Source: Isoetes taiwanensis (lineage: Eukaryota > Streptophyta > Lycopodiopsida > Isoetales > Isoetaceae). Taken from it: a DNA stretch of 64,000 bases. A program made the position numbers and the translations under genes. Below are positions 1-33,233 of this stretch, in pieces. Numbering within the stretch: the first letter of the stretch is position 1; each line of letters begins with the position of its first letter. The DNA is taken from assembly GCA_021234155.1 (NCBI GenBank), contig JAJEKV010000071.1, positions 2,465,246 through 2,529,245 of the forward strand, written 5' to 3'. The notes beneath the pieces were generated by a model that worked only from the letters and a program-made list of their open reading frames with translations, did no database searches and was not told the DNA's origin.

Positions 1-66
1 ACTCCAAGAGTGCACCAGGAGCATGTTAGGTTCAGACCTAATGGCCCTCTCGCGCACTCTTAGAGT
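1..66. repeat. 66-bp double-hairpin repeat, copy 1
   Basis: Outer inverted arms begin ACTCCAAGAGTGC and end GCACTCTTAGAGT, around an inner palindrome of the type TTAGGTxxxGACCTAA. This copy is the most diverged in the inner loop. It is the first of five; the next begins 214 bp downstream. Confidence 0.8.
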
Positions 67-214: not shown

Positions 215-280
215 ACTCCAAGAGTGTGCCAGAGTATAGTTAGGTCCCGACCTAACCCCCCCCTCGCGCACTCTTAGAGT
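215..280. repeat. 66-bp double-hairpin repeat, copy 2
   Basis: Same outer arms as copy 1, with a perfect inner palindrome GTTAGGTC-CC-GACCTAAC closed by a C-rich run. It begins 211 bp before copy 3. Confidence 0.85.
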
Positions 281-425: not shown

Positions 426-491
426 ACTCCAAGAGTGCGCCAGACCATAGTTAGGTCCCGACCTAACCCCATCCTCGCGCACTCTTAGAGC
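426..491. repeat. 66-bp double-hairpin repeat, copy 3
   Basis: Outer arms ACTCCAAGAGTGCGC and GCGCACTCTTAGAG (15 bp, one mismatch) plus the perfect inner palindrome. This is the copy nearest the H3-like gene, about 220 bp before its ATG. Confidence 0.85.
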
Positions 492-714: not shown

Positions 715-1895
715 ATGGCTAGGACCAAACAAACCACCCGCAAGCCAAAGAAGGACGATAGACCCAGCGCCCAAGTGCTCGCCGCTGAACAGAAGCTCAA
801 AGATGCTAACGACAAACTGAAGGCTGACATGGAGAGGCGGCCTAGGTATTACAGGAATTTGGAAAAGAGGCGCAGGAAAGAAGAAAAGGCCAGGAAGAAA
901 GAAGAAAAGGCAAAGAGAAGAGAAGAAAGAGCCAAGAGAAAGGAGGAGAAAGCGAGAAGAAAAGCAGATGAGGAGGTTGCAGAAGCAGAAGACGACCAAT
1001 GGCGAGAGCAAAGAACCAAGAATAGAGAGGATCCCGACCCCAAAGGAAAAAGGGTAATGACTGAAGAACCCCCACCTAAGAAGAGGAGAACCTCGGTCGG
1101 CGTAACCATAAACGAACCAACCGAAGGCGAACAACCTCCAGCCTCGTCAGAAGACACCGATGATATAGCAGAACTCTTGAGGCAACCCTTCTCGGAATGG
1201 GAGAATCCTCACATCAGAAGCCTAACCCTCGTCCGGACACAGATGAAACGCCGGAGGAAGAACCACTCCCAGCTCAAGATGCAGCTGAGACGCAGATTGA
1301 CCTACCTCCGCCATTACCCCCACCATTTTTGGAATGGCAAGAAGCAAAGAAACTAGATGCAGAGAAAGCAGCTGGCAAGAAAGCAACCAAAATCGCCCGC
1401 GACTCGTACACCTTGGGGCCGGAGAGGAGGTACAAGAAAGAATTAGCAGATTACAAAGTATACAAGAAGATGCACGAGGAATACGTAGCCTATTACGAAG
1501 CAAACAGGGTCAAAGTTGTCGAAGGAGGGAGGCCAACTCGAGAAGCATTCCAGCTCAAACCTCCGCCAGAACTGCCAGAACCCCCCAAGAAGCCTATGAA
1601 GAGATCCCAAGACTCCCCTTTTGCGAGAGCCCTGCGAGAAATCAAACACTTCCAAAGGAGCTATGGATTCCTCATCCCGAGAGCAGCATTCCAGAGGTTC
1701 GTCCGAGAAATCTTGTGGGAGTTCGACCCCAACAAGCAAGTAACCAACGACATGTTACTCGCTTTACAAGAAGCAGTAGAGATGGAGGTCGTACATCATT
1801 TCGAGGATTCATTGGCATGCACTCTCCATGCAAAAAGAGTCACCCTTCAACCAAAGGATATGAAACTGGCTAAATACATCAAGAGGAGAGACTAA
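715..1895 (+). CDS. Extended histone H3-like protein, one frameshift
   Basis: The N-terminus is ARTKQTTRKPKK; after Met, eight of the first nine residues match H3, keeping R2, T3, K4, R8 and K9, while A7 is T and S10 is P. About 290 residues follow that H3 lacks: four seven-residue repeats of the type RKEEKAR (nt about 874-957), the NLS-like PPPKKRRTS, an acidic stretch and a proline-rich stretch. The C-terminus (nt about 1617-1892) is a complete H3 fold: ALREI, FQRFVREI, ALQEA, FED, HAKRVT and PKD align in order with canonical spacing. The Cys and His equivalent to H3 C110 and H113 are kept. Loop 1 has the H3 length, unlike the longer loop of CENH3. The reading frame changes once between about 1200 and 1235, by sequencing error or mutation. 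The total is about 393 aa against 135 for H3. It lies on the same strand as, and upstream of, X and gag-pol. Confidence 0.85.
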
Positions 1896-2039: not shown

Positions 2040-2105
2040 ACTCCAAGAGTGCACCAGAGCATAGTTAGGTCCCGACCTAACCCTCTCCGCGCGGACTCTT
2101 AGAGT
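2040..2105. repeat. 66-bp double-hairpin repeat, copy 4
   Basis: Outer arms and inner GTTAGGTC-CC-GACCTAAC palindrome as in copies 2 and 3. The right arm is slightly altered (CGCGCGGACTCTTAGAGT). It lies between the H3-like gene and X. Confidence 0.85.
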
Positions 2106-2250: not shown

Positions 2251-2316
2251 ACTCCAAGAGTGCGCCAGAGCATACTTAGGTCCCAACCTAACACCCCCCT
2301 CGCGCACTCTTAGAGT
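2251..2316. repeat. 66-bp double-hairpin repeat, copy 5
   Basis: Begins 211 bp after copy 4. Outer arms are intact; the inner palindrome has one change (TTAGGTCCCAACCTAA). It ends about 225 bp before the X start codon, similar to the distance of copy 3 from the H3-like ATG. Confidence 0.85.
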
Positions 2317-2363: not shown

Positions 2364-2540
2364 TTCATCCCAAATATCAGGAGTTTTAGAAACCCTAAAA
2401 ATTTTAGGGCATAAATTCCCTATATATACCCGTATAACCCCTAAACCTCAACCACAAAGATTGCTCCCCGCGATTGAGGCGATCTCCCGGCTTACTCAAA
2501 GGCTCCCGGTTCCGCTTGATATCGGCAAACAATTCTCGCC
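2364..2540 (+). promoter_or_regulatory. Promoter and leader of protein X, unit 1
   Basis: Contains the telobox AAACCCTAA (2390-2398) inside a near-palindrome CCCTAAAAATTTTAGGG, then TATATATA at 2421-2428 and a C/A-rich leader up to the ATG at 2541. The block recurs before X at 8984-9151 and 23121-23283. Upstream homology to those copies begins at CATCCCAAAT (about 2366). Confidence 0.6.
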
Positions 2541-4062
2541 ATGGCTACGTAATCTTTCATCGGTTGGTATAGCCCCCACGCTTTGAAGTAGATGTCAATA
2601 TAGTATTCCAAGTATTTCAAAAAGAATTTGACCTTTCAGCAACCCTGAACTCCAATCCTTTCTACCAGCAAGTCCTGCAAGAATTCCAAGAGAAAGTTAT
2701 CCCTAGCTTACAGAAGATACCGCCATGCATAGGGTACTTTGTACCAAGGACCCAGAATGATGCAAAGCGGCCCTCGGTCATGTACCCAATATTGCCAAAG
2801 TATTGCGGAACGTAACCAACCGCTTACCAGCCTACATGACCCTAACCAAAGAATGGAAAAGTTTTCTCCTCCTACAACACTGACCTTTAGCGATATATCT
2901 AGTATATAGGGTCAAACCATAATAGGCTTAACCATCAATTCAGCCACCGGAGGTCACACCCTTGGACGCAAAGTTGATTTAACGACTACCGCCGGAGTAT
3001 GAAGAGACCATAGCGTAAGCATCCGAGAGAGTGAAAACTCCGAAAGGTGAAAAGCGAGGATGACATAGAGGTGGACCCAGAGGGGGAACGCCGGGCGAAC
3101 AAGACATCACCCGCCTCGAAGCCGACAGACCACCCCGAGGATTGCACAACCAATCGGGTTGGGAATAACAAGTTTAGCACCAATCATAGTCGAAGGACAA
3201 GAATACTTGCCGCTAAATGACATCAAAACCTCCCCTAAATCAGGGGACAGAGGGCTACCGTTGTTGATCTAACTCCTTCACCATCTACGGAGACAGCCGG
3301 ATTTAGAAGACTTCATTGACCAAGAAACTGAAGATTTTCCGTGCAAACACGAAGCGCCTACTTACACAGATACACCATGCTCCGGACATTGAAGCTTACG
3401 GCGCTATCAGAGGTATGATGACGGAAGAACTCCCTACCGAGGAGGAGTTTAGAGCACTTCAAGAGCAGATGGGAATAAGGGGGAAGACAACAAGAGTACT
3501 TCAAGGGGAGTCTTCTTCCTCGCAAGAACAGTAGCAAAATTCCAAGGAGAGCCACAAACCCGACAAGTGTACCTAACGCTCTTCCGGGATTATAAGGAAT
3601 TAGTTCAAGTACCCATCGACAAGATTATCGCCAAGGCACGTGGGTACCTCAGAGCACGTGGAGGAGTACGAGAACAGCAAAGACTCAAATATTATCTTCC
3701 GCTCCTAATGCATCGGTAGAGTAATAATATTTCACAAGCGCCAGCCCACACGAGAGGAAGCCGCGGCAGATGCTAGTAGCACTTTCGGGATTTGGCATGC
3801 ACGCACGCTTATCAGAAAAAGTCGACCATGTTATTTTGGTGAAGCGGAAAATAGCCTTGGGCATTTTCGACTTTGCAGTACCACACCTTCGACAAGGTAG
3901 GTTAGTAAAGGACAAAGAGCTCATACCTCCCATAGACGGGTGGAAGAGCTAGCATCCGCCATCCGAGGGGGATCAGCAAGGGATATACTCAGGAACTTGG
4001 GAAGTACAGTAGGTACAGCCAAAGTAAAGAAGTTCCTTGAGGATCACCCAGACTATCAGTAA
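2541..4062 (+). pseudogene. Protein X, unit 1 (damaged copy)
   Basis: This aligns end to end with the cleaner copies at 9152 and 23284 but carries many small indels. The fourth codon area reads ACGTAATC where unit 3 has ACAGAATC, which creates an early stop. Readable pieces include 3316-3534 and 3770-3952. The stop TAA is at 4060-4062 after EDHPDYQ. Most differences from the other copies fall at CAG, CTG or CCGG, so the damage may be partly technical. Function is discussed under unit 3. Confidence 0.7.
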
Positions 4063-4220
4063 ATCAATGTAATGGAAATCATGACTACTGTATTAAGATA
4101 TATCGGCTATATATATTAATATAAGACCCTTTTTGAATTGCATTTCAAAATGTCTTTTTGGTATCGTTGTCTTAACAATCATATCATTTAAACACCTAAT
4201 GCAACCAACAAAAGGAACTC
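4063..4220 (+). other. Spacer between X and gag
   Basis: AT-rich spacer conserved in all three units (also 10680-10837 and about 24812-24967). It includes a TATATATATTAATATAAG run and TTTTTGGTATCG. Its near-constant length of about 158 bp ties X to gag as parts of one element. Confidence 0.6.
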
Positions 4221-7200
4221 ATGATAAATGGTGCCAATGTAATATGTGCAGTCAGAGCAGCTAGGAATGTCGACCTTGAGTTCCAAGCCCAAGGCGATCA
4301 GACACCTCTCAGACAATTCCAGCCTCGGGAACTATTCGAAGAGTATTACGCACCGACACCGGAAGAAGAAATCTCGCAGATGAGGTCAGATCTGCAAGAA
4401 ATCAAAGCCATGCTGGTAGGCAGAGGAAGAAACAAGCAGGACCAGAATGTACAGGTCCCAGAGGCCCGTTCTCAGCACAAAGGAAAGGAGAAAAAGAGGA
4501 ACCGACCCAGATCTTCTAGTTCCAGCTCTTCCGACAGCTCGGATTCAAGCTCGAAGTCCGAGGAGGAAACAAGAAGAACGGCCCGAAGGAAGAAAGAATA
4601 ACGGAGGCAGCAAGGCCAATCCGACTACCGTAAGAAGGTCGATTCGCTTTAAGTAATGTTTGAAAGCACGAAAATGGAACAGCTTTTCCGCTTAAAAACA
4701 GATCGTGGATGGAAGTCAAGCATGGCTAGACGAGATGAGTGAGTACGGAAATGCTTACGCATGAAAGATAAAGATAATGGCAGTGGTAGCCACCGCTAAC
4801 TTGAAAGGGGCAGCCCGTATTTGGTGGAGGGGTTATGCTAAAGCCCATGGAATGAGCAGAGACAAGTGCAGGTTCACAAAGTTCGCAAGGGCCTTCAAAA
4901 AGCACTATGTTCCAAGAGAACACAAGTGCCACCAGATGCAAGCATTCCACAGATTGCAACAGGGGAACAAATGCATTGAAATATACGGAAGAGTTCATGA
5001 GGTTGAGGCTATATGTGCCAAAACTCAGCGAGAGAAGAGCAGTGGAAGGCTATCTGGAGGGGTTGAATGAGGACCTATGGAAGATAGTCCGAGCCCTCAA
5101 CCCACGCCAAGATTCGGAGGCTTGAAGCTTAAGGCACCGAGCCTACAAGGGACAGGCCTCGTAAAAGTGAACCCAAGCAATTGGTATGACAAAGGAAAAG
5201 CATATGGAGGTCGAGCCCAAGAGCAAACAGTCCATCGCCTGCAAAGACACCATACACCGGAAATCAATGGAAACAGCCAGAGAAAAAGCAGGTCAGCTTC
5301 AAAGAGAAAGGACAAGGGGAGGCTCAAATTATTCAAAAGACAGTCAAGTAGTTCCTCAACTCCATCCCGAAAAGAAAAGCGGCAGGAATGTATAGAAAAA
5401 CAGTTGAAGCTTAGGTGTTTCCAAGTGGGGCATAGAACACACAACCGCCTGCTCAGTAATGAATGCAAAGACTTTATGAGATGGGAGGTTGGGAGACCCA
5501 AACATGTAAGAAGAGGAGGACTAAAGACGCTTAACTATATCCATGGTGAGTGTCACATCTTTGCCGCCATAGACACGTAAAAGCGCAGAGAGCCGCATAC
5601 CAAGTAATATCCACGATTGGTAAAATAGCCGCCAAATCTTTTATAGTCCTCATAGATCGTGGCGCTCCCACAATTTCGCCACCAAGGATGGCACAAATGC
5701 TAAAGTTGAAAACACTAAAGTCTAAGCCTGCACCAAGAGTAGTGTTAGCCGAGCCATCATAAGCACACGGGCCGGCAAGAGGGTGAATTTCAATCTAGAC
5801 TTACCGGGTATCAATATTGAAATGGGAGCAGAGATCATGAGCATAGGAAAATATGACCTCATCATAGGTATGGAATACCTCAATCCGGCGAAAGCACAAA
5901 TAGATTGTGGAGAGCGGAAGGTGAAGCTCACGGCGCCTAACGGGAAAATCATAGAAATCTCAGGTAAGCAAGTGACACCTATAATGCAATGCATGTCGAG
6001 TAAGAAATTACTTAGATGCATCAAAAGGAGCAAGTTGCATACATCTTCAAATTAGAACTTGCGAAGAAGAAGAGGCACCAGAAGATAAGGAAGATAAACC
6101 AAGAAGCAAACTTGTAGTAGCCAAGCTAATAGAGGAATTCCATGACTTGTTCCCCGATGAAATCAAGGAGCTTCCGCCATATAGGGGAGTAGAGTGCTAA
6201 ATTGCACTTTCGAACTGTGCACTAAGCCCACGCAGTAAGGCACCATATAGAATGACAGCTCACCTAACTATCGAGTTGAAGAAGCAATTGCAAGAGCTAT
6301 TAGACCTAGGGTTCATAAGACCTAGTGTCTCCGCTCGGAGCCCCCATATTATTCGGCCAAAAGAAAGATGGAAGCTTGAGGATGTGTATTGACTATCGCC
6401 AATTAAACAAACACACAATCAAGAACAAGTATGCCTTACCCTGAAGCGGATGACCCGATGGATCAATTACAAAGCGCCGTGGTCTTCCAAGATAGACTTA
6501 AGGTCCGGATATCATCAAATCAGAATCAAAGAGGAAGATATTCACAAGACGGCCTTCCAACAAGATACCACCACTATGAATTTGGCCATGCCATTTGGCC
6601 TATCAAATGCCTTCAAAGAACGTTCATGAGACTCATGAACGATATCTTTCGAGAATTCCTTGACACATTTGTTATCGTGTTCTTCGATGACATTTTGGTG
6701 TATAGCAAGTCCCTAGAGGAGCATATTCAGCACTTTAGAAGGGTACTTGAGAAGCTGAGAAGACACCAGCTTTATGCGAAGTTGTCGAAATGTCATTTCG
6801 CCACCGAAAGAGTGGAATACTTGGGGCATATCATATCAGCAGACGGCATCTCCACCGATCCGGCAAAGATCCAAGCAGTGATTGAATGGCCAGCACCAAA
6901 GAACATACACGAGGTGAGAAGTTTTTTGGGCTTAGCAGGATATTATAGAAAGTTCATCAAGAACTTTGCTAAGATAGCAGCACCCTTAACGGACCTTACC
7001 AAGGCAGAAAAGATAAAAGACTGGGTGGCACATTGGCAAAAGAAGGCTCAAGTAGGATTTGAGAAGTTAAAGGAGGCCTTAACAACCGCCCATGTCTTAA
7101 CATTGCATGATCCAGAGAAGGACAAGCTAGTCGCAACTGATGCGAGCAAGATTGCGACGGGAGCAGTCTTAATGCAAGAGGAAAGAGTCGTAGCATACGA

Positions 7201-9003
7201 TTCACGAAAGACGAATGACGCAGAGACTCGCTACCCGACACATGATCAGGAGCTATTGGCAGTAGTAAGAGCTTTAAAGATCTGGAGACACTATCTATTG
7301 GGAAGGAATTTCCAATTAGATACCGACCACCAGAGTCTGCAGTACATCTTCACGCAACCATTGTTGAATTTAAGACAAAGAAGATGGATGGAGTTCCTCG
7401 AAGAGTACGACTTCGAGATTGTATACAAGCCAGGGAAACTCAATGTGGTCGCAGACGCTCTATCAAGGCACCCCTTAACAACAAGGGTGCATTGCAATGT
7501 CATATCAACACTTACCAGTGAGTTTGGCAAGAAAATAGAAGAAACGCTGCCAACAGACAAGGACTTCCAGGAAGTATGGGCTAGCCTCTCTAAAGAGGCA
7601 AGAAGGGACAAAGAGAGAGAAGCCTTCAAACATTTTAAGAAGGAAGGAAAGCTCTTGTACCATAAAAATAAGTTGTGTGTGCCGGAATCATCCGGAGTCA
7701 GAAGGTTGATTCTCCATGACACCCACAACAACCCAATAGCCGGCCACGCAGTTTTTTTAAAACCTACTTCAAGATAAGAAGTAGTTACTATTGGCCGTGC
7801 ATGAAGAAGCAGATAGCAAGGTACATACGCGAAAGTGTCAGCTATGCCGCCCAGACCAAAGCGAACAACTACTAAATCCGTGAGCATTAGAGCCATTGCC
7901 GCACCAAACTCCAAGTGGGAGATAATAAGCATGGACTTCATTACAGTGGCTCCCTAGAACCATAAGGGGCAAAGATGCCTTAATGGTCGAGTCGACAAAT
8001 TGTCGAAGATGGCGACTTTGTGCCTTTGTAGGAGCACCGACACGGATTAGACAAATGGGTGCTATTCACTAAGGAGATTTTTTAGACTCCATGGGATGCC
8101 AAGAGAAATAATCTCTAATAGAGATTTGAAGTTCATGAGTGCATTCTGGCAGGATCTCTTCAGCACCATCGGAACGAAATTGTCAATGAGCACGGCTTAT
8201 CACCCTCGCATGATGGGTGACGGAGCGCACCAATTGGATACTCGAAGATATGGCGGAATTATGTCCGAACAAGAATCAAAGTGGGATGACTTCATTTACT
8301 TGGTTGAGTTTGCATACAATAGCACCAAGCAAGAGTCATCCCAAATGTCGCCGATTTATGATCAACTACGCTATCGATTGCTTGACACCGCACACTTGGC
8401 ACAACCCCATTGTCCAAGGTAGAAGTATCCCAGGATGATACCGTAGAGAGATGCAACAATTGGTTGAAGAGGTGCGAGGATACCTCCCAGCAGCAAGAAG
8501 CCGGCAAAAGAGCATAGCTGATCTAAGACCTAACAAAGAAGGGAGTTCCAAGTAGGGGACAATGTTTGGCTAAAAGATAAAAGTCAAACAAGCAAAGCTC
8601 GCGATCGGCCATTGCAAGAAGCTTGCTCCAAGGTGGGCTGGTCCATTTAAAATTGTCAAAAAGAGTAGGTAACCAAGCCTACAAATTGACTTACCAAAGA
8701 CACCCTCAAGATCCATAGAGTCTTTCACGTAAGTCTCCTAAAGAAACACACTCCTAATCCAGAGGAAGTATTGGAGACACCGAAGTTTATTGGAATTAAC
8801 GGACGATCAACTTGAGATTGTTCCCCAGGTTCTTCTCGAATCCATCTTATAAGAAGACGGTAGAAGATCTCAATTTCTCCAAAGACCTTGTGAAATGGAC
8901 GACTTACCAATGGAGGACGCCACTGGTACTACAATCGATCTTGAGAAGCATTACCCACAATGCAAGGGTCATGCAAGGGTCATCCCAAATGTCGAGTTTT
9001 AGA
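4221..9003 (+). pseudogene. Chromovirus gag-pol, unit 1 (frameshifted; RT-RNase H part intact)
   Basis: Ty3/gypsy order. Gag N-terminal part with a Ser/Lys/Arg-rich tract at 4221-4601. Retrotransposon gag core (AARIWWRGYAKAHG..., FARAFKKHYVP) at about 4777-5125. A decayed zinc knuckle lies near 5400, where one Cys is replaced, and a decayed protease near 5640. RT and RNase H follow at 6379-7700, integrase zinc-binding and core at about 7700-8420, and the chromodomain at about 8810-8985. Frameshifts and stops break every part except 6431-7777. The reading ends by running into the leader of the next unit, not at the natural stop seen at 37185-37187. Confidence 0.8.
6431..7777 (+). CDS. Intact RT palm, RNase H and integrase start of unit 1
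   Basis: Open for 448 codons. The RT active site reads [12 protein letters not shown] (FFDD at nt about 6680-6691), followed by the conserved thumb ([22 protein letters not shown]). RNase H acidic residues are visible in order: TDAS (residue 237), the E of HDQELLAVV (274), TDH (298) and ADALSR (342). The C-terminus reaches the first His residues of the integrase zinc-binding region before a frameshift. This is a fragment of a polyprotein, and its internal Met is not a natural start. It is the cleanest RT-RNase H segment of the three units. Confidence 0.9.
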
Positions 9004-9151
9004 AACCCTAAAAATTTTAGGGCATAAATTCCCTATATATACACGATAACCCCTAAACCTCAACCACAAAGATCGCTCCCGCAATTGAGGCGATCTCCCG
9101 GCTTACTCAAAGGCCCCGGGCCTGCTCGAGCATCGGCAACACAATTTCGCC
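8984..9151 (+). promoter_or_regulatory. Leader of protein X, unit 2, fused to the unit 1 pol end
   Basis: The chromodomain coding end runs directly into CATCCCAAATGTC and then the X leader. Telobox at 9003-9011, TATATAT at 9034-9041. No LTR, hairpin repeat or H3-like gene lies between the units. Confidence 0.6.
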
Positions 9152-10679
9152 ATGGTTACGTAATCTTTCATCGCTTGGTATAGCCTCCCCCGCTGTTGAA
9201 GTAGATGTCAATATAGTATTCCAAGTATTTCAAAAGAATTTGACCTTTCAAAGCAACCCCTCAACTCCAATCCTTTCTACCCGACAAGTCCCGCAAGAAT
9301 TCCAAGAGAAAGTTATCCCTAGCTTACGTAAGAAGATACCGCCATGCATAGGGTACTTTGTACCAAGGACCGCGAATGCAAACAAATTTCAGTCATGTAC
9401 CCAATATTGCCAAAGTATTATGGAATGAACCAACCGCTTACAGCCTACATGACCCTAACCAAAGCAATGGAAAAGTTTTCTTCCTCCAACAACAACCTTT
9501 AGCGATATATATCTAGTATATAGGGCCTAAAACCATAATAGGTGAACCATCAATTCAGCCACCGGAGGTCACACCCTTGGACGCCTTGTAGACCTAATCA
9601 AGCATCGGGCTTGAGTATGAAGAGACCATAGCGTAAGCATCCGGGAGAGAGTGAAGACTCCGAAAGCAGAAAGCGAGGATGACATAGAGGTGGACCCAGG
9701 AGGAGGAACGCCGCTTTGAACAAGACATCACCCGCTTGAAGCCGACGGGACCACCCCGAGGATTGCACAACCAATCGGCCTGGGAATAACAAGTTTAGCA
9801 CCAATCATAGTCGAAGGACAAGAATACTTGCTGCTAAATGACATCAAAAACCTCCCCGAATGCAGGGACAGAGGCTACCGCGTCGACGAACTCCTTCACC
9901 ATCTACGGAGACAGCCGGATTTAGAAGACTTCATTGACCAAGAAACTGAAGATTTTCCGGTGCAAATATGAGAAGCAGCTACTTACACAGGACACACCAT
10001 GTCGGACATTGAAGCTTACGGCGCTATCAGAGGTATGATGACGGAAGAACTCCCTACCGAGGAGGAGTTTAGAGCACTTCAAGAGCAGATGGGAATAAGG
10101 GGGAAGACAACAAGAGTACTTCAAGGGGAGTCTTCTTCCTCGCAAGAACAGGTAGCAAAATTCCAAGGGAGAGCCACAAACCTGACAAGTGTACGAACGC
10201 TCTTCCAGGATTATAAGGAATTAGTTCAAGTACCCATCGACCAGTATGCGTCAAGGCACAGGGGTACCTCAGGAGCACGTGGAGGAGTACCGGGAACAGC
10301 ACTCAAATATTATCTTCCGCTCCTAACAGACGGTAGAGTAATAATATTTCACAAGCGCTTCAGCCCACACGGAGAGGAAGCTGTGCAGATGCTAGTAGCA
10401 CTTTCGGGATTTGGCATGCACGCACGCTTATCAGAAAAAGTCGACCATGTTATTTTGGTGAAGCGGAAAACAGCCTTGGGCATTTTCGACTTTGCAGTAC
10501 CACACCTTCGACAAGGTAGGTTAGTAGTGACAGCAGCTCATACCTCCCATAGACGGGTGGAAGAGCTAGCATCCGCCATCCGAGGGGGATCAGCAAGGGA
10601 TATACTCAGGAACTTGGGAAGTACAGTAGGTACAACCAAAGTAAAGAAGTTCCTTGAGGATCACCCAGACTATCAGTAA
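9152..10679 (+). pseudogene. Protein X, unit 2 (C-terminal half clean)
   Basis: The N-terminal half is broken by indels. From 9999 the frame is open for 226 codons to TAA at 10677-10679, giving the best view of the X C-terminus. Residues about 137-212 of that frame (nt about 10407-10634) resemble an H2A fold: GFGMHARL against plant H2A VGRIARFL, and LASAIRGG...ILRNLGSTV against LQLAVRND..LSKLLGDVT. Spacing differs by about four residues. The match is weak and by eye. The region about 10230-10310 disagrees in frame with the other copies and is probably mis-called. Confidence 0.6.
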
Positions 10680-10837
10680 ATCAATGTAATGGAAATCATG
10701 ACTACTGTATTAAGATATATCGGCTATATATATTAATATAAGACCCTTTTTGAATTGCATTTCAAAATGTCTTTTTGGTATCGTTGTCTTAACAATCATA
10801 TCATTTAAACACCTAATGCAACTAACAAAAGGAACTC

Positions 10838-13800
10838 ATGATAAATGGTGCCAATGTAATATGTGCAAATGAGCAGCCTAGGAATGTCTAACCTTTGAGT
10901 TCCAAGCCCAAGGCGATCGACACCTTCTTCGCATTAATTCCAGCCTCGGGAACTATTCGAAGAGTATTACGCACCGACACCGGAAGAAGGAATCTCGCAG
11001 ATGAGGTCAGATCTGCAAGAAATCAAAGCCATGCTGGTAGGCAGAGGAAGAAACAGGCAGGACCAGAATGTACAGGTCCCAGAGGCCCGTTCTCAGCACA
11101 AAGGAAAGGAGAAAAAGAGGAACCGACCCAGATCTTCTAGTTCCAGCTCGACTGGCTGGATTCAAGCTCGAGTCCGAGGAGGAGGAAAAGAAGAACGACG
11201 GGAAGGAAGAAAGAATAACGGGAGGCAAAGAAGGCCAATCGACTACCGTAAGAAGGTCGATTCGACCTTAAGTAATGTTTGAAAGCACGCAGCCGGAACA
11301 GAAGCCCGCGAAAAACAGATCGTGGATGGAAGCGGGCTAGCATGGCTAGACGAGATGAGTGAGTACGGAAATGCTTACGGCATGAAAGATAAAGATAAAA
11401 GGTGGTAGCCACCGCTAACTTGAAAGGGGCAGCCCATATTTGGTGGAGGGTTATGCTAAAAGCCCATGGAATGAGCGAGAGACAAGCGCGTGTTCACAAA
11501 GTTCGCAAGGGCTTTCAAAAAGCACTATGTTCCAAGAGAACACAAGTGCCACCAGATGCAAGCGCCCACAGATTGCAACATGGGGAACAAACTCCCGACT
11601 GAAATATACACGAAGAGTTCATGAGGTTGAGGCTATATGTGCCAAAACTCAGCGAGAGAAGAGCAGTGGAAGGCTATGTGGAGGGGTTGAATGAGGACCT
11701 ACGGAAGATAGTCCGAGCCCTCAACCCACGCTCAGTATCGAAGGCGGAAGCGAAGGCACTGAGCCTACAAGGGACAGGGCCTCAGAAAAGTGAACCCAAG
11801 CAGTGGTATGACAAAGGAAAAGCATATGGAGGTCAGAGCCCAAGAGCAAACAGTCCATCGCCTGCAAAGACACCATACACCGGAAATCAATGGAAACAGC
11901 CAGAGAAAAAGCAGGTCAGCTTCAAAGATAAAGGACAAGGGGGAGGCTCAAATTATTCAAAGACAGTCAAGCAGTTCCTCAACTCCATCCCGAAAGAAAA
12001 GCGGCAGGAATGTATAGAAAAACAGTTGTGCTTCCGGTGTTTCCAGCTGGGGCATAGAACACACAACTGCCCGTTCGTAATGAATGCAGCACTTGCGGAG
12101 ATGGGAGGTTGGGAGACCCCGACAGAAGAAGAGGAGGACGAAGGACGCGACTATATCCATGGTGAGTGTCACATCTTTGCCGCCATAGACACAGAAAGCG
12201 CAGAGAGCCAGTACCAAGTAATATCCACGATTGGTAAAATAGCCGCCAAATCTTTTATAGTCCTCATAGACTGTGGCAGTTCCCACAATTTCGCGTCACC
12301 AAGGATGGCACAAATGCTAAAGTTGAAAACACTAAAGTCTAAGCCCAGACCAGTAGTGTTAGCTAGCGGAGCCATCAGGCACACGACCGGCAAGAGGGTG
12401 AATTTCAATATAGACTTACCGGGTATCAATATTGAAATGGGAGCAGAGATCATGAGCATAGGAAAATATGATCTCATCATAGGTATGGAATACCTCAATC
12501 CGGCGAAAGCACAAATAGATTGTGGAGAGCGGAAGGTGAAGCTCATGGCGCCTAACGGGAAAATCATAGAAATCTCAGGTAAGCAAGTGACACCTATAAT
12601 GCAATGCATGTCGAGTAAGAAATTACTTAGATGCATCAAAAGGGAGCAAGTTGCATACATCTTCAAATTAGAACTTGCCGAAGAAGAGGCACCAGAAGAT
12701 AAGGAAAATAAACCAGTAAGCAAACTACCCAAGCAGGTAGCCAAGCTAATATTCCATGACTTGTTCCCCAACGAAATCAAGGAGCTTCTGCCATATAGAG
12801 GAGTAGAGTGCGAAATTGCACTCGAACCAGGCACTAAGCCCACGAGTAAGGCACCATATAGAATGACAGCTCACGAACTATCAGAGTTGAAGAAGCAATT
12901 GCAAGTGCTATTAGACCTAGGGTTCATAAGACCTAGTGTCTCCTCGTTCGAGCCCCCATATTATTCGGTCAAAAGAAAGATGGAAGCTTGAGGATGTGTA
13001 TTGACTATCGTCAATTAAACAAACACACAATCAAGAACAAGTATGCCTTACCCGAGGCGGATGACCCGATGGATCAATTACAAGGCGCCAGTGGTCTTCT
13101 CGGTGATAGACTTAAGGTGCGGATATCATCAAGTCGAGAATCAAAGAGGAAGATATTCACAAGAAGAACAAGATCGGCCACTATGAATTCACGATCCATG
13201 CCATTTGGCCTATCAAATGAACAAAGAACGTTCATAAGACTCATGAACGATATCTTTCGAGAATTCCTTGACACATTTGTTATCGTGTTCTTCGATGACA
13301 TTTTGGTGTATAGCAAGTCCCTAGAGGAGCATATTCAGCACTTGAGAAGGGTACTTGAGAAGCCGAAGACACCCCTTTTATACGGTTGTCGAAATGTCAT
13401 TTCGCCAATCGAAAAGAGTGGAATACTTGGGGCATATCATATCGCCAGACGGGCATCTCAACCGATCCCAAGAAAGATCCAAGCAGTTGATTGAATGGCG
13501 GCCACCAAAGAACATACACGAGGTGAGAAGTTTTTTGGGCTTAGGATATTATAGAAAGTTCATCAAGAACTTTGCTAAGATAGCAGCACCCTTAACGGAC
13601 CTTACCAAGGCAGAAAAGATAAAAGACTGGGTGGCACATTGGCAAAAGAAGGCTCAAGTAGGATTTGAGAAGTTAAAGGAGGCCTTACACAACGCCCTGC
13701 CTTTAACATTGCATGATCCGAGAAGGACAAGCTAGTCGCGAATCGATGCGCAAGCAAGATTGCGTGGGAGCGCCTTAATGCAAGAGGAAAGAGTCGAAAG

Positions 13801-14498
13801 CATACCATTCACGAAAAGATGAATGACGTAGACTCTCGCTACCCGATACATGATCGTGAGCTATTGGCGTTAGTAAAGAGCTTTTAAAGATCCGGAGACA
13901 CTATCTATTGGGAAGGAATTTCCAATTAGATACCCACCACCGAGTCCGGCATTACATCTTCACGCTAACCATTGTTGAATTTAAGACAAAAAGATGGATG
14001 GAGTTCCTCGAAGAAAACGACTTGAGATTGTATACAAGCCGTGGAAAACTCAATGTGGTCGCAGACGCGCTCTATCAAAGGCACCCCCTTAACAACAAGG
14101 GTGCATTGCAATGCCATATCAACACTTACTAGTGAGTTTGGCAAAGAAAATAGAAGAAACGCCAACAAAGGACTTCCGTGAAGTATGGGCTAGCCTCTCT
14201 AAAGAGGCAAGAAGGGACAAAGAGAGAGAAGCCTTCAAACATTTTAAGAAGGAAGGAAAGCTCTTGTACCATAAAAATAAGTTGTGTGTGCCGGAATCAT
14301 CCGGAGTCAGAAGGTTGATTCTCCATGACACCCACAACAGCCCAATAGCCGGCCACGCAGGTTTTACGAAAACCTACTTCAAGATAAGAAGTAGTTACTA
14401 TTGGCCAGGCATGAAGAAGCAGATAGCAAGGTACATACGCGAGTGTCAGCTATGCCAGCAGACCAAAGCGGAACAACTACGAATTCCAGGAGCATTAG
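10838..14498 (+). pseudogene. Chromovirus gag-pol, unit 2, 5' part
   Basis: Best copy for gag C-terminus to protease: 11621-12991 is open for 456 codons. It shows a CX2CX4HX4C zinc knuckle (CFRCFQLGHRTHNC, nt about 12029-12070), the protease active site VLIDCGSSHNF (nt about 12260) and the N-terminal RT approach. RT then continues with frameshifts (12988-13494, 13355-13735), RNase H is broken, and the integrase zinc-binding H/H/C/C is readable at 14290-14470 (HDTHN...GHAGF...CQLCQQTK). Coding stops at 14498, where the TIR element is inserted, and resumes at 22014. Confidence 0.85.
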
Positions 14499-14524
14499 AA
14501 GCCTTATGCAATTAAATTGAGAGA
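14499..14524 (+). repeat. Left terminal inverted repeat
   Basis: Exact reverse complement of 21988-22013. The preceding TTAG (14495-14498) is the target duplication. Confidence 0.9.
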
Positions 14525-14887
14525 TATGACTCATTTTTGCAAGTGAGAAAATTGGTTCACGCATCAAATTAACATTATTTATAAAACAACTCATATTCAA
14601 TAAAAATTTGAAAAGGAATTTGATGTAGTAATCCATAACTAACAACTATCAAGTAGTACAGTGAATTGTAAATTTTATTCCAATGGACCCGGACCCATAC
14701 ATAACATCCGTCCAACATATTCCAACGTATCTTTCACAATATATCTTTCACAATGTCTAAAAATTCCGAGCTTTATTCACGAGTGGTTTTTAACCCTTTT
14801 TTTTTCTCCTTTTCAATTTGTGTTGTGATCCCTGCATGTAGAAAAACATTGAAACACAAAACGTTTTTAAGAAGCATTATGGAATAA

Positions 14888-17693
14888 CTAGTAAAGGTGC
14901 CCAGCGTTGCTGGGCATAAGTTGGGGGCATGTAAATATTATGGCCGCAATGATAAAAGCGAACCATTACAGACCATGACAAACTCTTCAAGCCCTTACCA
15001 ATCGTAATGGCATAAGGAGAAACAATTTCCTATGTAACCTTGTGGCCTAGGTATATGATCTCAAGCTTGTACATTTTAAATGTCCTTTTAAATGCAAAAA
15101 ATTATAATATTAGAGTTGACCCAACATTTAAAATGTCAAGGGTTGTTTGCTCTCACATAGCAAGGGTTCTTTGCTCTCACGTAGCTTTGGGCAATAATTT
15201 AGTCCATTAGTATTTTTGTACCGCTTTTAGTTTGTGTAAGCTTTGTACATAATCGATAAGACTTCGGGATGTTGCTTATGCATGCAAGAAAAAATATAAT
15301 GACTTCAGATGTTGCTTATGCATGCAAAGTATTTTGTAAGGTGTTATTATTTATTATCTATGATAATGTTTTTCTATTTTTGCCATTTCACCATGGCATT
15401 TCAAATAACACCATCAATGTTCTTAAATTTGGTTTTGCATTGGCAATTCAGCCAACATTCGAATCGAATAAAGAATTCCAAAAGTACAATAAGTGTATCA
15501 AGCTTCCAATAAGTACCTGTACAATAAGTGATGCAACCAACTGAACAATCAGATCCACATTTGAGTCACACCGGCATGGTTATATTGCCTTGTAAGAACT
15601 AACAATAACTGCAAGATGGAATGTATTATAAAGAATGAAGAGTACAATTCAAATACTATTGGATGTGCATAAATATCCATAATGTTACAGGAATCTCAAA
15701 TTTTTTACTTCCATGACCTTTTGCTGGATGATATAAGTAGGAATTTCTTTTGTATTGAACTTATGTGGCAGTAGACATAGACTGGCTTGTGCCAAACGCA
15801 CAAACTTCTATTTTTCGAAGATCATAGTGCAATTTCTATGAGGTATTCAACCAGACTAAATGATGCAATCCTGAAAAGAGAAACGTCTAGAGGTTAAATG
15901 TTGTACCACAACAGTAGAGAAAATTGTCCTATTCAAGCCCTAGCTTAGCTGTTCAAAAACAAATTAAAAAGCAAAGCAAAGCTTACCCCAATTTGCAGCT
16001 TCGGATTTAGATTCAGAATAGCTTTTTTTTCCAGTTCAAACATGAATTACTCAGCAAATGTAGGCGTCAATTTAATGTAGACGCCAATTTCTTTTGAAAC
16101 AACACAATTGGTTTGTACCGCTTATGGACAGACCTGCAAAGCAACCCACACTAATGATGTGCATCCTAAAAACACATGCATATTATTATGTTTGCATTAT
16201 TGATGTAGCACAACAGGCAGAAACTTATTTCAATTGGAAAGCAAACGCACAATAGTTAAACTCCGATAGCTTTATTTATAGTTCAAACATGGATTATTCA
16301 GATAGCTTTATTTATAGTTCAAACATGGATTATTCAGCAAAATGTAGACGTCAATTTCTCTTGAAACAACATAACTGGTTTGTAGCACTTTTGGATGGAC
16401 AGACCTGCAAATCAACCAAACACTAATGACAATTCCATGGCCAGTTTCCATCTCCTAAATAAGATCCCTGAACCTACACTTTTTGCATATTTACATCGAC
16501 ATGCTATAATGCCAGAAGAGATTGTATTTACCTTCACACGAAGCAGAAGAAAACTATGCACATGCTGCTGTTCTACACGTTTGCTGGTGATTTGCTGGCC
16601 TGGTGATTTGCTGGCCTGGTGGTTTGTTGGTTTGGTTTGTTTTGCTGCTTTTGTTATAAGAAAATGCAGCGTTAGTTGCTTCAACCTAACAAAGAAAAGC
16701 TTCCAAATCTCTTTATCACGATAGCAAATTACAGTCTAACAGTGGTAGAAATTGATGCATCCTACACAAAGCAAATTAAAAAAATACCTCATCTCAGATC
16801 CATCCAAGCCAGACATACACTTTCTTAGTCACTGCAGATCAACCCCAATAGGCCAATATTACATAGTGGTTTCCGCCTTTGAGAGACAGGGAGCCTATAC
16901 CACCAGCGGCAATTCTGAGATACGAAGGAGCATATACTTCCCCAACTCCAGTTTATCCAGACAATGCCCCACTAAGAAACGACACTGTTTTCTTCAACAA
17001 AACCCAAACGAAAATCAGGAGTCTGGATTCAGAAGATACCCAATCGAGGTTCCAGAGATAGTAGCCATGAATCTGTATTACATGATCTCGCTAAATATAA
17101 GGCCTTGCACTGTAGAAGACTTCGGCAGAATATATCCATGCTAAGTGCTGGACATGGCATCATGCCATTTTATACTTATAATAAGAAGCCAGAAACCACG
17201 CATTCCAGAATCCTGCTTTCTAGAACCATGAACAGAGGTTTTGAGAGATGAACCCTCATTATCAGTTTGTCTCTCCTCCGAATATCTACCTCAAAGCCAA
17301 TGACAGGCATGAAGCAACTTGCTTCTCTGGCGAGAAATCCTGAAAAGCCAAGCTAAAAAAAGGCATGAAGTCGCTTGCTTCTCCTCCGGAAAATCCTGCA
17401 AGCAAAAACGGCCATGGGGCAACTACATGAATCGATCAAGGCCTGGGTTGCTGTGCTCACAGCGGTAGCTAGGGCAAGGAAAAAAAAACGTGTTTACAGG
17501 CTGATGTGGTCATGGCCGTCAGACTCGGAAGGGCTTCGCAGAATAAAGGGCATTTGGACCATCGAAAAAAGAGATTATATTTAAAAAAAAGGGGCTTTGT
17601 TTGGACCCTTCGATCTGGTTAGGCCATCTGTGGCCGTCCGATCTAGGGCTGGATCCAAATCCAGGAATTACGACATAACATTATAATATAGGA
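14888..17693 (-). mobile_element. Helitron, non-autonomous, nested in the TIR element
   Basis: On the minus strand it begins TCCTATATTATAATG and ends with a GCCCAGCAACGCTGGGC stem-loop, a short spacer and CTAG. The flanking bases are A (14887) and T (17694), as expected for Helitron insertion between A and T. No Rep/helicase is encoded. The interior has no convincing gene. A diverged copy is at about 56060-58690. A 36-bp stretch (GATAGCTTTATTTATAG...) is duplicated at about 16265-16335. Confidence 0.8.
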
Positions 17694-18070
17694 TAGGATC
17701 CCAAATCAATGTGAAATTAGAAATCGCCCAAAATTGCAACTTTGTCTAAAGGCTAGCTGCAAGAGATATAGATAGAGATATAGATAAGGTCATTGTGCGC
17801 ATTATTTTATTGATGATTTCATGCTTAATCTTGTGAGGCAGACATGCCAAACAATGAATGGTCTCAAAATTCTGCAATTCAAATCACAGCAGTATTGGGC
17901 AAAAATCCACGTCCAATCTAATTAGAAAAAAACATGCTCCAAAGGAGGTCTGAACCTGGAATTGATCAAGATGAACATCTGGAGTTTCACAGGATATGTA
18001 GGCTGAGAGAATATATATCCCACATAATAAAAAAGATTGCAGGTTAGAAGGCAGAAGAAATCATGCAGAG

Positions 18071-18150
18071 GCAATCTTTCCAATTTTGAGCAAGCAATTT
18101 GGAGGACTTGCCAATCTTTCCAATTTTGAGCAAGCAATTTGGAGGACTTG
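18071..18150. repeat. Two tandem 40-bp repeats
   Basis: Near-identical units of the form CAATCTTTCCAATTTTGAGC... at 18071-18110 and 18111-18150, in otherwise unrecognised noncoding sequence. Confidence 0.85.
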
Positions 18151-19723
18151 GCACAAGTATCTACGCATCAGGAACCCCTTAAGAAGCAAGAGAGACTCAA
18201 ATCAATGTGAGGGCCGTGTATGGGAAGGAATCAACTGCTACTGAAGTGCCATTCTCTGAGTATTTCTAATTTCTACTTTGACCAGGTTCAAAAGATACAC
18301 AAGCATCTACCATATATTCTGCTCTTCCATTAAACATAGTCAAGGTAAAAAATTACCTGCAGTAGGTAAAGTAGGTAAAGCTGGAGAACGAACAACCAGA
18401 AAACGGCAAGATAGAGGCTCAAAAATCATCCCTGCAAATCCGCCAGTCACCAGAAATGTGGTGCATTGGATCGCGGACTCAAGTCCTTGCCATCAAGTTC
18501 ACTTTTTTTTTCTACCATCCCTGACAAGAAAACCCACTTCGTTTTCCACAGTAGATCATTTCTTATAGCATTACACGAACCCGTTCTCATGTTTTAGAGA
18601 TAGATTTGCTTCCCTTTTCTGAATTGGTAAAACCAGTCTGAAGATATTATTCTCAGTCAATTTTAGTCCGGATCTTGTTTTACAGATGAAAGGTAATCCC
18701 TTTCGAGAGTTCACATTTTTTTTTCTCATTGAAGCTTTTAGCAGGATCTGAGATACGTGCTTGAGAAACAAGAGATATGAAGCAAAAACACATCATCGTT
18801 TTTCAGAATCGAGTTAGTTAATATGCATAAGAAAGAACTCATGTAGAATGCGGCAAGATTTGGCAAGACCTACCTTGAACTGGTGCTATCTTGGACGGAT
18901 TTCTATAATACCTATCTGGAGATAGTATCCTACATGCCGAATCAGTAGCGCTCCCGCAGAATGACGACGTTTTATCCTTCCAAGAACCCGACCTGACATG
19001 CAAAAACGCCAAGAAGTTGGGATTCAAAAAATGTATGCTATTTTTAGTGCTTTTTTTGAATTCACAGTAACCTCCTGCGCCACGTACAGAGGCCCAGCAC
19101 ATGAAGACCGACACAGCGAACATGTATGCCTACACAAGCAGCGAACGCCGAAAAAGTTTTGGAAGCCGGTTTGCATTGGGACAGCCGTTTTGAATGCCCA
19201 GGAGAACTAGAAGCCAAGGACAAAATCTTCTATGGCGCCATCTCAACAGAGTTGAGATCTGTAGAAACTACAAATTTTGTAGTCGGGATTGCAATGTGGC
19301 GCAGGAAATTCCATAAAAAACCTAATGGAGATGGGCTCTAAGGCATCTCTTATATTGCGGAAAGGTGCTTCAAGACCATACGATGGCATAGAACAAAATA
19401 ACATCAGGCCGGATGCAAAAGGTAAACCCTCTCTTTATACTCTTGGGATGCTCTTTTCTTTTCATATTGAAATATTTTCCATGCATTTACCGTACATGTT
19501 TTACCCTTTCACCTTTCACTTGTTGTATTAGATTTGTGTGTGTGGTAATATAGTGGATATGGGCGAGTCAAAATATTTAAATACCATTGTTATTGTAATG
19601 GTGTCGATGGCTGGGTATAATCCTTCCTTCCATCCCTAGCAATATAAGTGTGACAATTTAGATTGAGTATGTAGCATGGCCAATTGTAGGGTTCATAGAT
19701 CATAGCTCGAGCTTATTATATAA

Positions 19724-20199
19724 TTGGCTCCTTATAGATCACGGACTTCAGTCCGTAGTCTCACAAACATTGGACTTGCTTATCACATAGTTGGCTCCTT
19801 ATAGATCACGGACTTGAGTCCGTAGTCTCACAAACATTGGACTTGCTTATCATATAGTTGGCTCCTTATAGATCACGGACTTGAGTCCGTAGTCTCACAA
19901 ACATTGGCCTTAAATCCATAGTTCAAAATAAATCTCTACACTATGGGACTAAGGTCAAATGATATTTTCGTTGGACTTTCTTGATGTGGATATGCTTATC
20001 TCCATTATTGTTGGCTCCATAAGATGCATTCATTTCCCCAAGTTCACGGACTTAAGTCCGTAATCTCAAGTTACAACTTATGCTCATTTTTAGTTGATTG
20101 GCTCCATAACATGCATTTGTTTTCTCTAGTTCACGGACTCAAGTCCGTAGCTCAAATTCATATTCTCAACTTGAGTCTAGTTTACGCACTTAAGTCCGT
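19724..20199. repeat. 67-bp tandem repeats with an ACGGACTTnAGTCCGT palindrome
   Basis: Three 67-bp units (19724, 19791, 19858) each contain the 16-bp palindrome (19741-19756, 19808-19823, 19875-19890). Three more palindromes lie without the rest of the unit at 20046-20061, 20133-20148 and 20184-20199 (one mismatch in the last). A decayed one is near 20630. Around 20 kb each palindrome is flanked by TTGGCTCC and CTCA-type motifs. Confidence 0.85.
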
Positions 20200-21788
20200 A
20201 CCTCAAGGTACCTCTTGTGCAGCCAAAGAACATGACTCAAACGAGTATGACTGACCTCACACATGATTCACAAACTGAACCTGTGGGTTAACGGTGCATT
20301 TCCATGACCCTGTTCCGGACCCAACCTGGCCTGACCATTTGCATCCAAGTCAGGGTGTTTTGAAGTGTCTATTTCCATGAGGCAAGACTCTTATTGCATA
20401 ACCTACAATGAAGAAGTAAGACTCTTACTCTGTTGCATAACCTACAATGAAGAAGCAACTTACTGTTTCTTCAGGAACAGGTCGGTGGAAGAACATGTAA
20501 GAATCTAGTGCAGGCTCATCTCATTGGCAGGAGCCTGGCCAGGGTAGCCACCAGTCTAGGTCAAACAGAGCATGGAAACGAGTTTTGGTGCACCCTGGCT
20601 TACAAGCCTCTAAGATGATCTCACGAAGTTCATGGACTTGAGTCTTTAGTGCCACGTTGCATGTATTTGTATCTTTTTCTGTTTCACTCCATATTGTCTA
20701 CTGACTTGAGGTCGTCGTTGAGATTCGGAACCTTTTAGTGTAACATTACATTGTGGTACCACTTTCTTATACCCACTCTTCCTTCCGCACTCAACCTTAG
20801 TTTGTGTCTATAATGGAATCATAGATATGAGACTATGGCTACAATTAGTTATAGTAATCTTAAAATATTATATGTTCTCTAGTAAGTTGAATAGTGAGAA
20901 TGGAAAATTGGGAACAAAGCTGGAGATGACAAGTAAACAAGAATATTAGTTGAGAGAATGCTTGGACGAGAGTAGACTTTTTTTCCTCAGCTAACTTGAT
21001 TTGTTCTTCGAGGCATTCAATGACAAGACCTCTAGTTTTGTCTTAACGTTTTCTAGCATGGTGCAAAATGAGCTTCATTATAGTGTTTATAGCTAAGTGA
21101 ATGTCCAATCAATAAAAAATTAAAACAACTAATTCGAGAGGTTGATTCCAAATGGAAGTTTTGCACACTTCACAGCTCTTAATGTACAAATGTAAATTAC
21201 CTCCATTTTTCTATGTATTATATAAATTACCCTTGTGGGCGAGGTGCATACCAATGCACGTGGGCGAGCATTGCGGAGGTGGCAATCCACTACCAAGACT
21301 TGCTTTAAACTCTTATGTGGCATAAAAGCCCACAAGGGCACTTTATAAAACATAAAATGGACTTGCTAAGTAGAAGTATCTCGTCAACATCCATTGGATG
21401 GGAATCATAGGTCAACTTGGATTTTCTCATGCTATTATTTATATGCCATTACATCGGCTTGTATCACATCTGGAGACAAACAGACTTGAACCACTAACAC
21501 AAGGATTTTCAGCCCTTCGTGATAATGCTGGAGAAGGACTTGAACCTACAATTGTTAGAGTATGAGCCTGATGAGCTAAACCATTCCTCTATCCTAGCAA
21601 GGACTACGTGCATGTTGGTAATTGTATTAGTTTTACATGATTTAAAAAAAAAACAGAAGTAATTTGGTAATAATTTCAATAAAACTCCCTTTACTAAGAT
21701 AGTAATACTTTTTGCAAGTAGGTTTCTCTTTTAAATGCATTATTCGTTCATCTGTATCTAATCCAGTGATTGTTCCAATTATTTATAA
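20200..21788. other. Interior of TIR element, nothing recognised
   Basis: Noncoding in all frames beyond short open stretches. No transposase motifs seen. Confidence 0.4.
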
Positions 21789-21848
21789 CCATGTGGGCCC
21801 GTTATCACGGACTAATATCCATGTGGGCCCGTTATCACGGACTAATAT
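21789..21848. repeat. Two tandem 30-bp repeats
   Basis: Two identical units containing ATGTGGGCCCGTTATCACGG at 21789-21818 and 21819-21848. The CACGGACT core echoes the palindrome repeats at 19.7-20.2 kb. Confidence 0.85.
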
Positions 21849-21987
21849 GTGTGTTTAGAATCATCTTTATCTTTGCATATAACTTTGAATGGTACATTAA
21901 GAAGATGATAAAGGATGCAACAAATGACTTCACGATGATAAAAGGACTTCAAAACTAGTCAATATGATTCAAAATGAGAAGTGGGAT

Positions 21988-22013
21988 TCTCTCAATTTAA
22001 TTGCATAAGGCTT
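21988..22013 (-). repeat. Right terminal inverted repeat
   Basis: Exact reverse complement of 14499-14524, followed by the target duplication TTAG (22014-22017). Confidence 0.9.
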
Positions 22014-23158: not shown

Positions 23159-23283
23159 ATTCCCTATATATACCCGTATAACCCCTAAACCTCAACCACA
23201 ACACTGCTCCTGCGATTGAGGCGATCTCCCAGCTTACTCAGGCGCTCCCAGTTCCGTTCGATATCGGCAACACAATTCTCGTC
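23121..23283 (+). promoter_or_regulatory. Leader of protein X, unit 3, fused to the unit 2 pol end
   Basis: Telobox AAACCCTAA at 23134-23142, the CCCTAAAAATTTTAGGG near-palindrome and TATATATA at 23165-23172, about 112 bp before the ATG. The junction with the chromodomain end is the same as at 8984. Confidence 0.6.
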
Positions 23284-24811: not shown

Positions 24812-24967
24812 ATCAATGTAATGGAAATCATGACTATCAGATTAAGATATATCGCTATATATATTAATATAAGACCCTTTTGAATTGCATTTCAAAATGT
24901 CTTTTTGGTATCGTTGTCTTAACAATCATATCATTTAAACACCTAATGCAACCAACAAAAGGAACTC

Positions 24968-27477: not shown

Positions 27478-27779
27478 CTAGTAATGGTGCCCAGCGTTGC
27501 TGGGCTTATGTTGGGACCTTATAAATGTTTTGGCCGCAATGACGTTCTAGAGGTTTATGAACGCTGAAAACAAACATAGCTCTTTCATGTTACACACTGT
27601 TAATTTGGGAGGGAACACAAATTCGAAATAGCATTCAATACATTGCAAATGTTAAAAGAACTTAATCAATTGGTTCATGACTTGCATATGGGTTGTATGC
27701 TAGAAGCATAATTTCAAAACCAAAATAGTGTTAGCGCGGTCTGTGGTCCACGCCATCGAGACAAGCCATGAAGTCGCAT

Positions 27780-30251: not shown

Positions 30252-30346
30252 AAACCCTTAACAATTACTTACTGATCACATAAACCAGCCAAACTAATTC
30301 CTCATAGAGGCATAAACCAGCCAAAGATGACGGCAAATATTACATA
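30252..30346. repeat. 95-bp direct repeat, copy 1
   Basis: AACCCTTAACAATTACTTAC... recurs at 33129-33223 with a few mismatches, bracketing the tandem repeats and the PPR fragment. Confidence 0.85.
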
Positions 30347-30375
30347 CGGACCACTGCCTGCTCCTAACAATTCCA

Positions 30376-33223: not shown

Positions 33224-33233
33224 ATGACTAATT

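Follow-up and report, generated by a model that had tools for sequence, protein, structure and literature searches.

Evidence for a Histone H3 Variant Encoded by a Ty3/gypsy Chromovirus Family in Isoetes taiwanensis

Introduction

Can a plant retrotransposon carry a core histone of its own, and what might such a protein do in the cell? This question is raised by a locus of Isoetes taiwanensis (Isoetales), which lies in contig JAJEKV010000071.1 of GenBank assembly GCA_021234155.1. The window referred to throughout this paper is the whole stretch of 64,000 nucleotides that was analyzed (positions 2,465,246 to 2,529,245 of the contig, forward strand). In an earlier sequence-only reading of the window, positions 715-1895 were described as a histone H3 with about 290 residues inserted between tail and fold, lying next to a retrotransposon.

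Several observations from other elements provide the background. Extra open reading frames (ORFs) are known in plant Ty3 elements (PMC6317226, PMC3350952), and host-type domains have been reported in retrotransposons, including an AlkB domain captured in orchid Ty3 elements (PMC9289625) and a Tudor domain in a Gypsy element of Ectocarpus (PMC12477816). The orchid screen covered 121 angiosperm genomes and recovered 15 unusual domains, and no histone is among those named in its text (PMC9289625). In a search of the open-licence literature by title and start of abstract, no retrotransposon-encoded histone was found among the matches listed. Here, the H3-like ORF of the window (ORF1), the element that carries it, and its relatives in the same genome are described, and the possible functions of its product are weighed.

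The H3-Like Reading Frame in the Window

The C-terminal part of ORF1 is an H3 fold, as the sequence-only reading had recognized. Residues 129-228 of the window ORF at 1197-1892 matched the Pfam Histone profile PF00125 (79.1 bits, E = 4.3e-22), which disposes of the reservation that this region might give no significant histone hit. H3s were the best solved-structure matches of the same ORF (E about 3e-19), and an alignment with H3 and CENH3/CENP-A rows gave loop 1 the H3 length. A single-sequence AF2 model of the ORF placed the helices in H3 order, with low confidence (pLDDT 55.7).

The N-terminal claim was only partly upheld. MARTKQTTRK indeed forms the first residues of the ORF at 715, but it lies in a different frame from the fold, and the single reading frame assumed for 715-1895 does not exist: frame 1 is open over 715-1356 and frame 3 is open to 1895 (Table 1). 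Comparison of the three window frames with the proteins of intact relatives located the frame change near 1165-1180. A codon-usage scan of 1163-1353 gave no clear switch point, with near-equal bests at 1204-1206 and 1315-1317. An intron in place of the frame change was rejected; several GT-AG pairs would restore a frame, but the 17 intact relatives described below have one continuous frame. Two residues of the window copy, T as residue 7 and Q in place of the loop-1 arginine, occur in none of these 17 relatives (0/17). The window copy is a frame-broken, decayed member of the ORF1 family.

Table 1. Positions of ORF1, the hairpins and the gag-pol units in the window.
Feature	Position	Strand	Details
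Hairpin 1, upstream array	1-66	+	
Hairpin 2, upstream array	215-280	+	
Hairpin 3, upstream array	426-491	+	424-492 as single-stranded DNA, z -6.75 against shuffles
5' half of ORF1, MARTKQTTRK start and charged/coiled insert	715-1356	+	Frame 1
3' half of ORF1, rest of insert and H3 fold	1197-1895	+	Frame 3, open from 1164
H3 fold (alphaN-alpha1-alpha2-alpha3, H3-length loop 1)	1611-1892	+	Pfam Histone and solved-structure matches
Hairpin 4, downstream array	2040-2105	+	
Hairpin 5, downstream array	2251-2316	+	
First ORF2-gag-pol unit of the same element, decayed	2365-8988	+	RT/RNase H ORF 6431-7774
Second gag-pol unit, interrupted	8980-23117	+	Pieces 8980-14499 and 22014-23117
Second unit, protease ORF	11621-12988	+	
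Second unit, chromodomain ORF	22547-23155	+	
Third gag-pol unit	23109-37153	+	Pieces 23109-27477, 34256-36064 and 36711-37153
Third unit, ORF2 piece	23284-24351	+	

A Repeated Family under Purifying Selection

The Isoetes taiwanensis genome (1,658,258,908 bases in 1110 contigs) was searched with the window ORF, and at least 150 places matched at E <= 3.6e-63 (150 of 150 scored, the window included; 9470 loose candidates). Twenty of the 149 non-window places were fetched, and ORF1 was intact in 17 of them, a share that is biased by the picking of most loci for long open frames; it was broken or cut in L011, L014 and L016. The intact ORF1 has 393-400 residues (448 in L019, which has an upstream ATG) and consists of an H3 start, a charged insert of about 290 residues and an H3 fold. 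The start reads MARTKQTARK in 15 of the 17, MARRKQTARK in L020 and MARTKQTAPK in L026. The 17 ORFs fall into subfamily A (n = 12), to which the window copy belongs, and subfamily B (n = 5). Both retain only H3 residues 1-9, followed by the roughly 290 other residues, and the tail is not joined directly to the fold.

Selection was estimated by pairwise Nei-Gojobori counts over the 17 intact ORFs (66 pairs within A, 10 within B and 60 between A and B). The dN/dS values within A were 0.026 for residues 1-10, 0.064 for the fold, and 0.178 and 0.087 for the two insert parts; those within B were 0, 0.057, 0.196 and 0.081, respectively. Between A and B, synonymous sites were at or near saturation (pS 0.74-0.99; tail 0.74), while pN was 0.007 (tail), 0.20 (fold) and 0.46 (insert part 1). 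Identity between A and B was 98% over residues 1-10, 32% and 59% over insert parts 1 and 2, and 69% over the fold, and MARTKQTARK (residues 1-10) is the longest identical run between the A and B majorities. Choosing intact ORFs disfavors stops but does not favor synonymous over non-synonymous substitutions. The counting was checked on a pair of host H3 genes with a single residue difference between their folds, which gave pN 0.073 and pS 0.67; non-synonymous change between codon families is thus counted too high by the method, an error that runs counter to the selection reading. ORF1 is, as judged from these counts, maintained by purifying selection.

A one-off processed H3 pseudogene is ruled out by the at least 150 genomic places, by purifying selection, and by a fold about 44% identical to H3s. 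What the sequence-only reading had proposed, a retroelement-borne H3 with an H3-tail start and an insert of about 290 charged residues, proved to be real, repeated, and under selection in the relatives of the window copy. Its further view that tail start plus insert are unlike known H3 variants needs qualification: plant CENH3s also begin with MARTK (two sequences), and the distinguishing combination is an exact ARTKQTARK with an insert of this size. That part of the family bears exactly the first nine residues of the host H3 tail suggests an action on host chromatin from inside.

The Host Element

ORF1 was said to lie next to a retrotransposon, which is too weak a statement, as the ORF sits inside the retrotransposon and the window starts within the same element. 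Its order is LTR, Met-tRNA primer site, hairpins around the H3 ORF, ORF2, gag-pol, chromodomain, and LTR. Loci were compared all against all (21 queries, with counts taken from the rows of five queries), and gag-pol was found downstream of ORF1 in 19 of 20 loci, with L026 as the exception. In L026, a 540-residue ORF that by eye resembles the gag of another retrotransposon lies 3' of the H3 ORF.

In 17 of 20 loci, a common 5' block has an abrupt start at TGTGACGTTCC, roughly 3 kb upstream of the reference point, and the flanks differ; the block was not seen in L013, L016 and L022. The LTR is about 1.6 kb long and is followed by the primer site TGGTATCAGAGC (Met-tRNA) in 15 of the 20; a purine-rich GGTGGGGAGAA precedes the 3' LTR. 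In A/B, the LTR start TGTGACGTTCC is followed by a near-palindromic ATAATATACG...CGTATATTAT and CACGTCAC stretch. The 3' piece was read for 12 loci, seven of which have near-full paired LTRs with TG...CA ends, 89-97% identical (L025 97.4%, L009 97.4%, L018 95.7%, L024 94.0%, L028 93.2%, L015 92.8% and L021 89.1%); no clean pair was present within the 3' piece read for L010, L012, L013, L023 and L027. Both ends were seen in six elements, and 5-bp target duplications were found in five of them (L025, L009, L018, L024 and L028); L015 has no target duplication, and L021 is cut.

The coding domains follow the Ty3 order. Pfam matches were obtained for gag/Ty3_capsid with a CCHC zinc knuckle, protease, RT, RNase H, a Tf2-1-like integrase end and Chromo, and visual inspection of L031 identified the integrase core. 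ORF2, at most 506 residues long, gave neither a Pfam match nor a clear match among solved structures. The cage positions of the chromodomain, read by eye, are I, W and L, so that two of the three cage residues are missing (I and L); a link in which the element's integrase reads a K9-methylated tail of the element's own making is therefore unsupported. The identification of the window ORF1 as a decayed copy of an H3 variant ORF of a Ty3/gypsy chromovirus family is near certain.

In the window, ORF1 is flanked by five 66-nt hairpins at intervals of about 211 nt, three on its 5' side and two on its 3' side (Table 1), and the same arrangement occurs in at least eight of 16 A loci (the window included). 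The B loci have two hairpins before ORF1 and two or three after, and L016 retains one. The hairpins belong to the element, by which an independent 211-bp satellite around an H3 gene is ruled out. From 106 raw matches, 73 had 66 letters and the outer motif, and 62 of these were distinct (41 A, 21 B). The pairing pattern is symmetric, with most of the outer-stem pairs present in nearly all copies. In four pairs (6-61, 27-40, 28-39 and 30-37) both partners have changed between A and B, although in B pair 27-40 forms in only 62% and pair 30-37 in only 52%; counter to covariation, several pairs, such as 5-62, 8-59, 16-51 and 18-49, form in one subfamily and are mostly mismatched in the other. The hairpins may act in translation or packaging, or as DNA palindromes.

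The gag and the hairpins bear on one account of ORF1, namely that its protein condenses the element's own cDNA before integration in a nucleocapsid- or nucleosome-like manner. A basic repetitive insert and a histone fold would suit such a role, and virus-encoded histones exist, but the gag of the element is an ordinary one that matches capsid and zinc-knuckle profiles, and ORF1 stands as an ORF of its own, set off from ORF2 by hairpins, so that we regard cDNA packaging as improbable.

Tandem Units in the Rest of the Window

Window positions 2365-37153 hold three head-to-tail gag-pol units of about 6.6 kb each, 9-15% diverged. They are joined directly, with an overlap of about 9 bp and with neither an LTR nor an H3 ORF between them, while the element at L025 has a 3' UTR and an LTR at the equivalent joint point. 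A description of the H3 ORF as merely upstream of a repeated unit holds within the window and is misleading, since the tandem gag-pol units lack the H3 part.

Units 2 and 3 are split by insertions at 14500-22013 and 27478-34255, with a minus-strand tRNA-Met (CAT) gene at 21525-21599 inside the first. Another repeat pair lies at 14934-17572 and 56110-58564 (79% identical).

Two Further Lineages and Their Phylogeny

A second search of the genome, in which an Arabidopsis H3 was the query, returned at least 15 host H3 genes (96-98%) and at least 135 further scored places (71-86%), many of them in long open frames. Twelve of the 135 were fetched, chosen for long frames, and all 12 have an intact ORF of 409-538 residues with a C-terminal H3 fold; eleven constitute lineage C, and L052 represents lineage D. 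In C/D, a fold that is close to host H3 is fused to an N-terminal domain different from that of A/B, and terminal ARTKQTARK is absent in all 12 fetched loci; lineage C has only an internal ARKSG-like stretch. The C locus L055, read more widely, has an LTR start, a primer site, ORF1 and then ORF2. The second part of this ORF2 is homologous to the A/B ORF2 (hhalign E = 3.8e-6, 212 columns), and its first part gave no match. The N-terminal domain of C was also considered as a copy of ORF2, to which it shows no similarity.

The LTR start of C elements is similar to the A/B start over its first 12 bases. L013 may be an inter-lineage recombinant: its A-type H3 ORF is preceded by a C-type LTR piece (84.8% over 1145 nt).

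Within lineage C (55 pairs) the fold has a dN/dS of 0.034; against two host H3 genes, pS was 0.97 and pN 0.12. In a tree of 38 folds, C and D formed one group (98/97) within the canonical H3s (88/86), and A and B formed a group apart (100/99), whose placement is unsure owing to long branches. A single clade of all element H3s is neither shown nor rejected by the same tree (AU p = 0.173).

It might still be supposed that an H3 copy was captured by chance and has no function, and the broken window copy itself would fit. A functionless passenger is scarcely credible, however, given that A, B and C are all under strong purifying selection and that synonymous sites are close to saturated between lineages; as far as sequence goes, the selection refutes it for the family.

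Conserved Fold Surfaces and the Comparison with CENH3

Six element rows, drawn from A, B, C and D, were inspected at H3 contact positions. The nine positions of the H3-H3 bundle are unchanged in each of the six rows (9/9). Of 14 DNA contacts, the C and D rows keep 12-13 and the A and B rows 6-7; of 26 positions in the H4-pairing core, C/D keep 23 and A/B 13-15, with polar residues among the replacements in A/B. By this comparison nucleosome competence looks retained in C and D; A and B appear to have drifted on the DNA and H4 surfaces with the bundle kept. Pairing with H4 is less sure for A/B, the lineage of the window, because fewer H4-core and DNA-contact positions are kept.

The window fold is 43-44% identical to the CENH3/CENP-A rows and 44% identical to the H3 rows, and a LIP.A.F stretch in its alpha1/loop region resembles the plant CENH3s in the alignment. 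This likeness, together with the equal identities, could point to a CENH3-like histone by which the element marks centromeres for insertion. Such a centromere device is very improbable: loop 1 has the H3 length and the longer CENH3-type loop is not present, the family occupies at least 150 places, many in one kind of retrotransposon, and A/B branch apart from the four CENH3/CENP-A rows in the tree, a weak placement as long branches meet there. A close-relative scan of IMG/VR with the window fold gave four stretches that matched a pattern, none of which was confirmed.

Possible Function of the ORF1 Protein

The fold is the feature common to A, B, C and D, and a histone function is therefore put first and tail mimicry second. 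The ORF1 protein would use its basic insert for nuclear entry, pair with host H4, self-associate by means of the retained four-helix bundle, and be incorporated into chromatin. At such sites the element's complex could be tethered by the insert, perhaps together with ORF2, gag or integrase, and in A/B the exposed H3 tail could engage host K4/K9 enzymes and readers. Integration would then be guided, or the local chromatin would take on a state tolerable to the element. We consider this tethering and sheltering mechanism possible, at somewhat less than an even chance; the statement that joins it to the identification comes nearer to an even call.

In A/B, the exact N-terminal ARTKQTARK, which is free at its N terminus after Met removal, strongly suggests that K4/K9 enzymes or readers would also be engaged. 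It counts against the chromatin mechanism that two of the 17 intact ORFs have a changed tail. In its most specific and more tentative form, which we hold rather doubtful, the proposal is that ORF1 and host H4 form element-specific nucleosomes, whose ARTKQTARK tail would be written and read by the K4/K9 machinery at the distance of the 290-residue insert and would serve as an integration address and a silencing shield, with at least two lineages (tail plus fold in A/B, fold only in C/D) side by side in one plant.

The tail also permits another reading, in which the protein is a decoy: an H3-tail mimic that occupies H3K4/K9 enzymes or readers and so weakens silencing, the fold only bringing it to histone-handling sites. 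K4 readers require a free N-terminal alanine, and ARTKQTARK, the longest run common to A and B, stands at the exact N terminus and is carried letter for letter by 15 of the 17 intact ORFs. However, the 12 fetched C/D loci retain the fold without a terminal ARTKQTARK, under strong selection in C, and an H3-H3 bundle is not needed for a decoy. A decoy is the main rival reading but unlikely, and tethering or self-made chromatin is ranked above a pure decoy because C/D keep the fold without the terminal tail.

Relation to Known Systems and Significance

In plant Ty3/gypsy chromoviruses, type II chromodomains without the first and third cage residues have been described (PMC3350952, PMC6317226), and the partner of the type II chromodomain is stated to be unidentified (PMC6317226). 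The Isoetes element agrees with the type II chromoviruses, as far as these sources describe them, in its LTRs, Met-tRNA primer site and gag-PR-RT-RNase H-INT-chromodomain order, and in a chromodomain without the first and third cage residues. It differs from the chromoviruses known from them in the H3-variant ORF upstream of gag, the structured hairpins, and an ORF2 without a Pfam match. With the AlkB and Tudor elements, as presented in their reports, it shares a host-type domain that is kept in a retrotransposon lineage, probably against or through host regulation; unlike in those elements, the captured domain is a core histone, whose N terminus in A/B is exactly that of H3.

Two groups of histones outside retrotransposons are also comparable. 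Virus-encoded histones occur in giant viruses, and a bracovirus H4 carries an N-terminal extension. In Isoetes as in these viruses, the histone is encoded by a mobile genome and may target host chromatin or the mobile genome's own DNA, but the mobile genome of Isoetes is a retrotransposon and not a DNA virus, its histone is an H3 and not an H4 or a histone doublet, and tail and fold are about 290 residues apart. CENH3/CENP-A is likewise a diverged H3 variant with a long N-terminal part, a MARTK start in plants and a similar fold identity; ORF1 differs from it by its H3-length loop 1, its exact ARTKQTARK, and its many copies inside a retrotransposon.

For work on this plant, the finding means that searches for H3 genes in the Isoetes taiwanensis genome return many element copies. 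ORF1 makes several questions testable: how type II chromodomain elements find chromatin, whether the tail mimic of a mobile element can engage the H3 K4/K9 enzymes, and what length of H3 tail has to be attached to the core. Chromatin reading by retrotransposons, through the chromodomain or the Tudor domain, is already known; an element that supplies the histone would add a new move to the silencing conflict.
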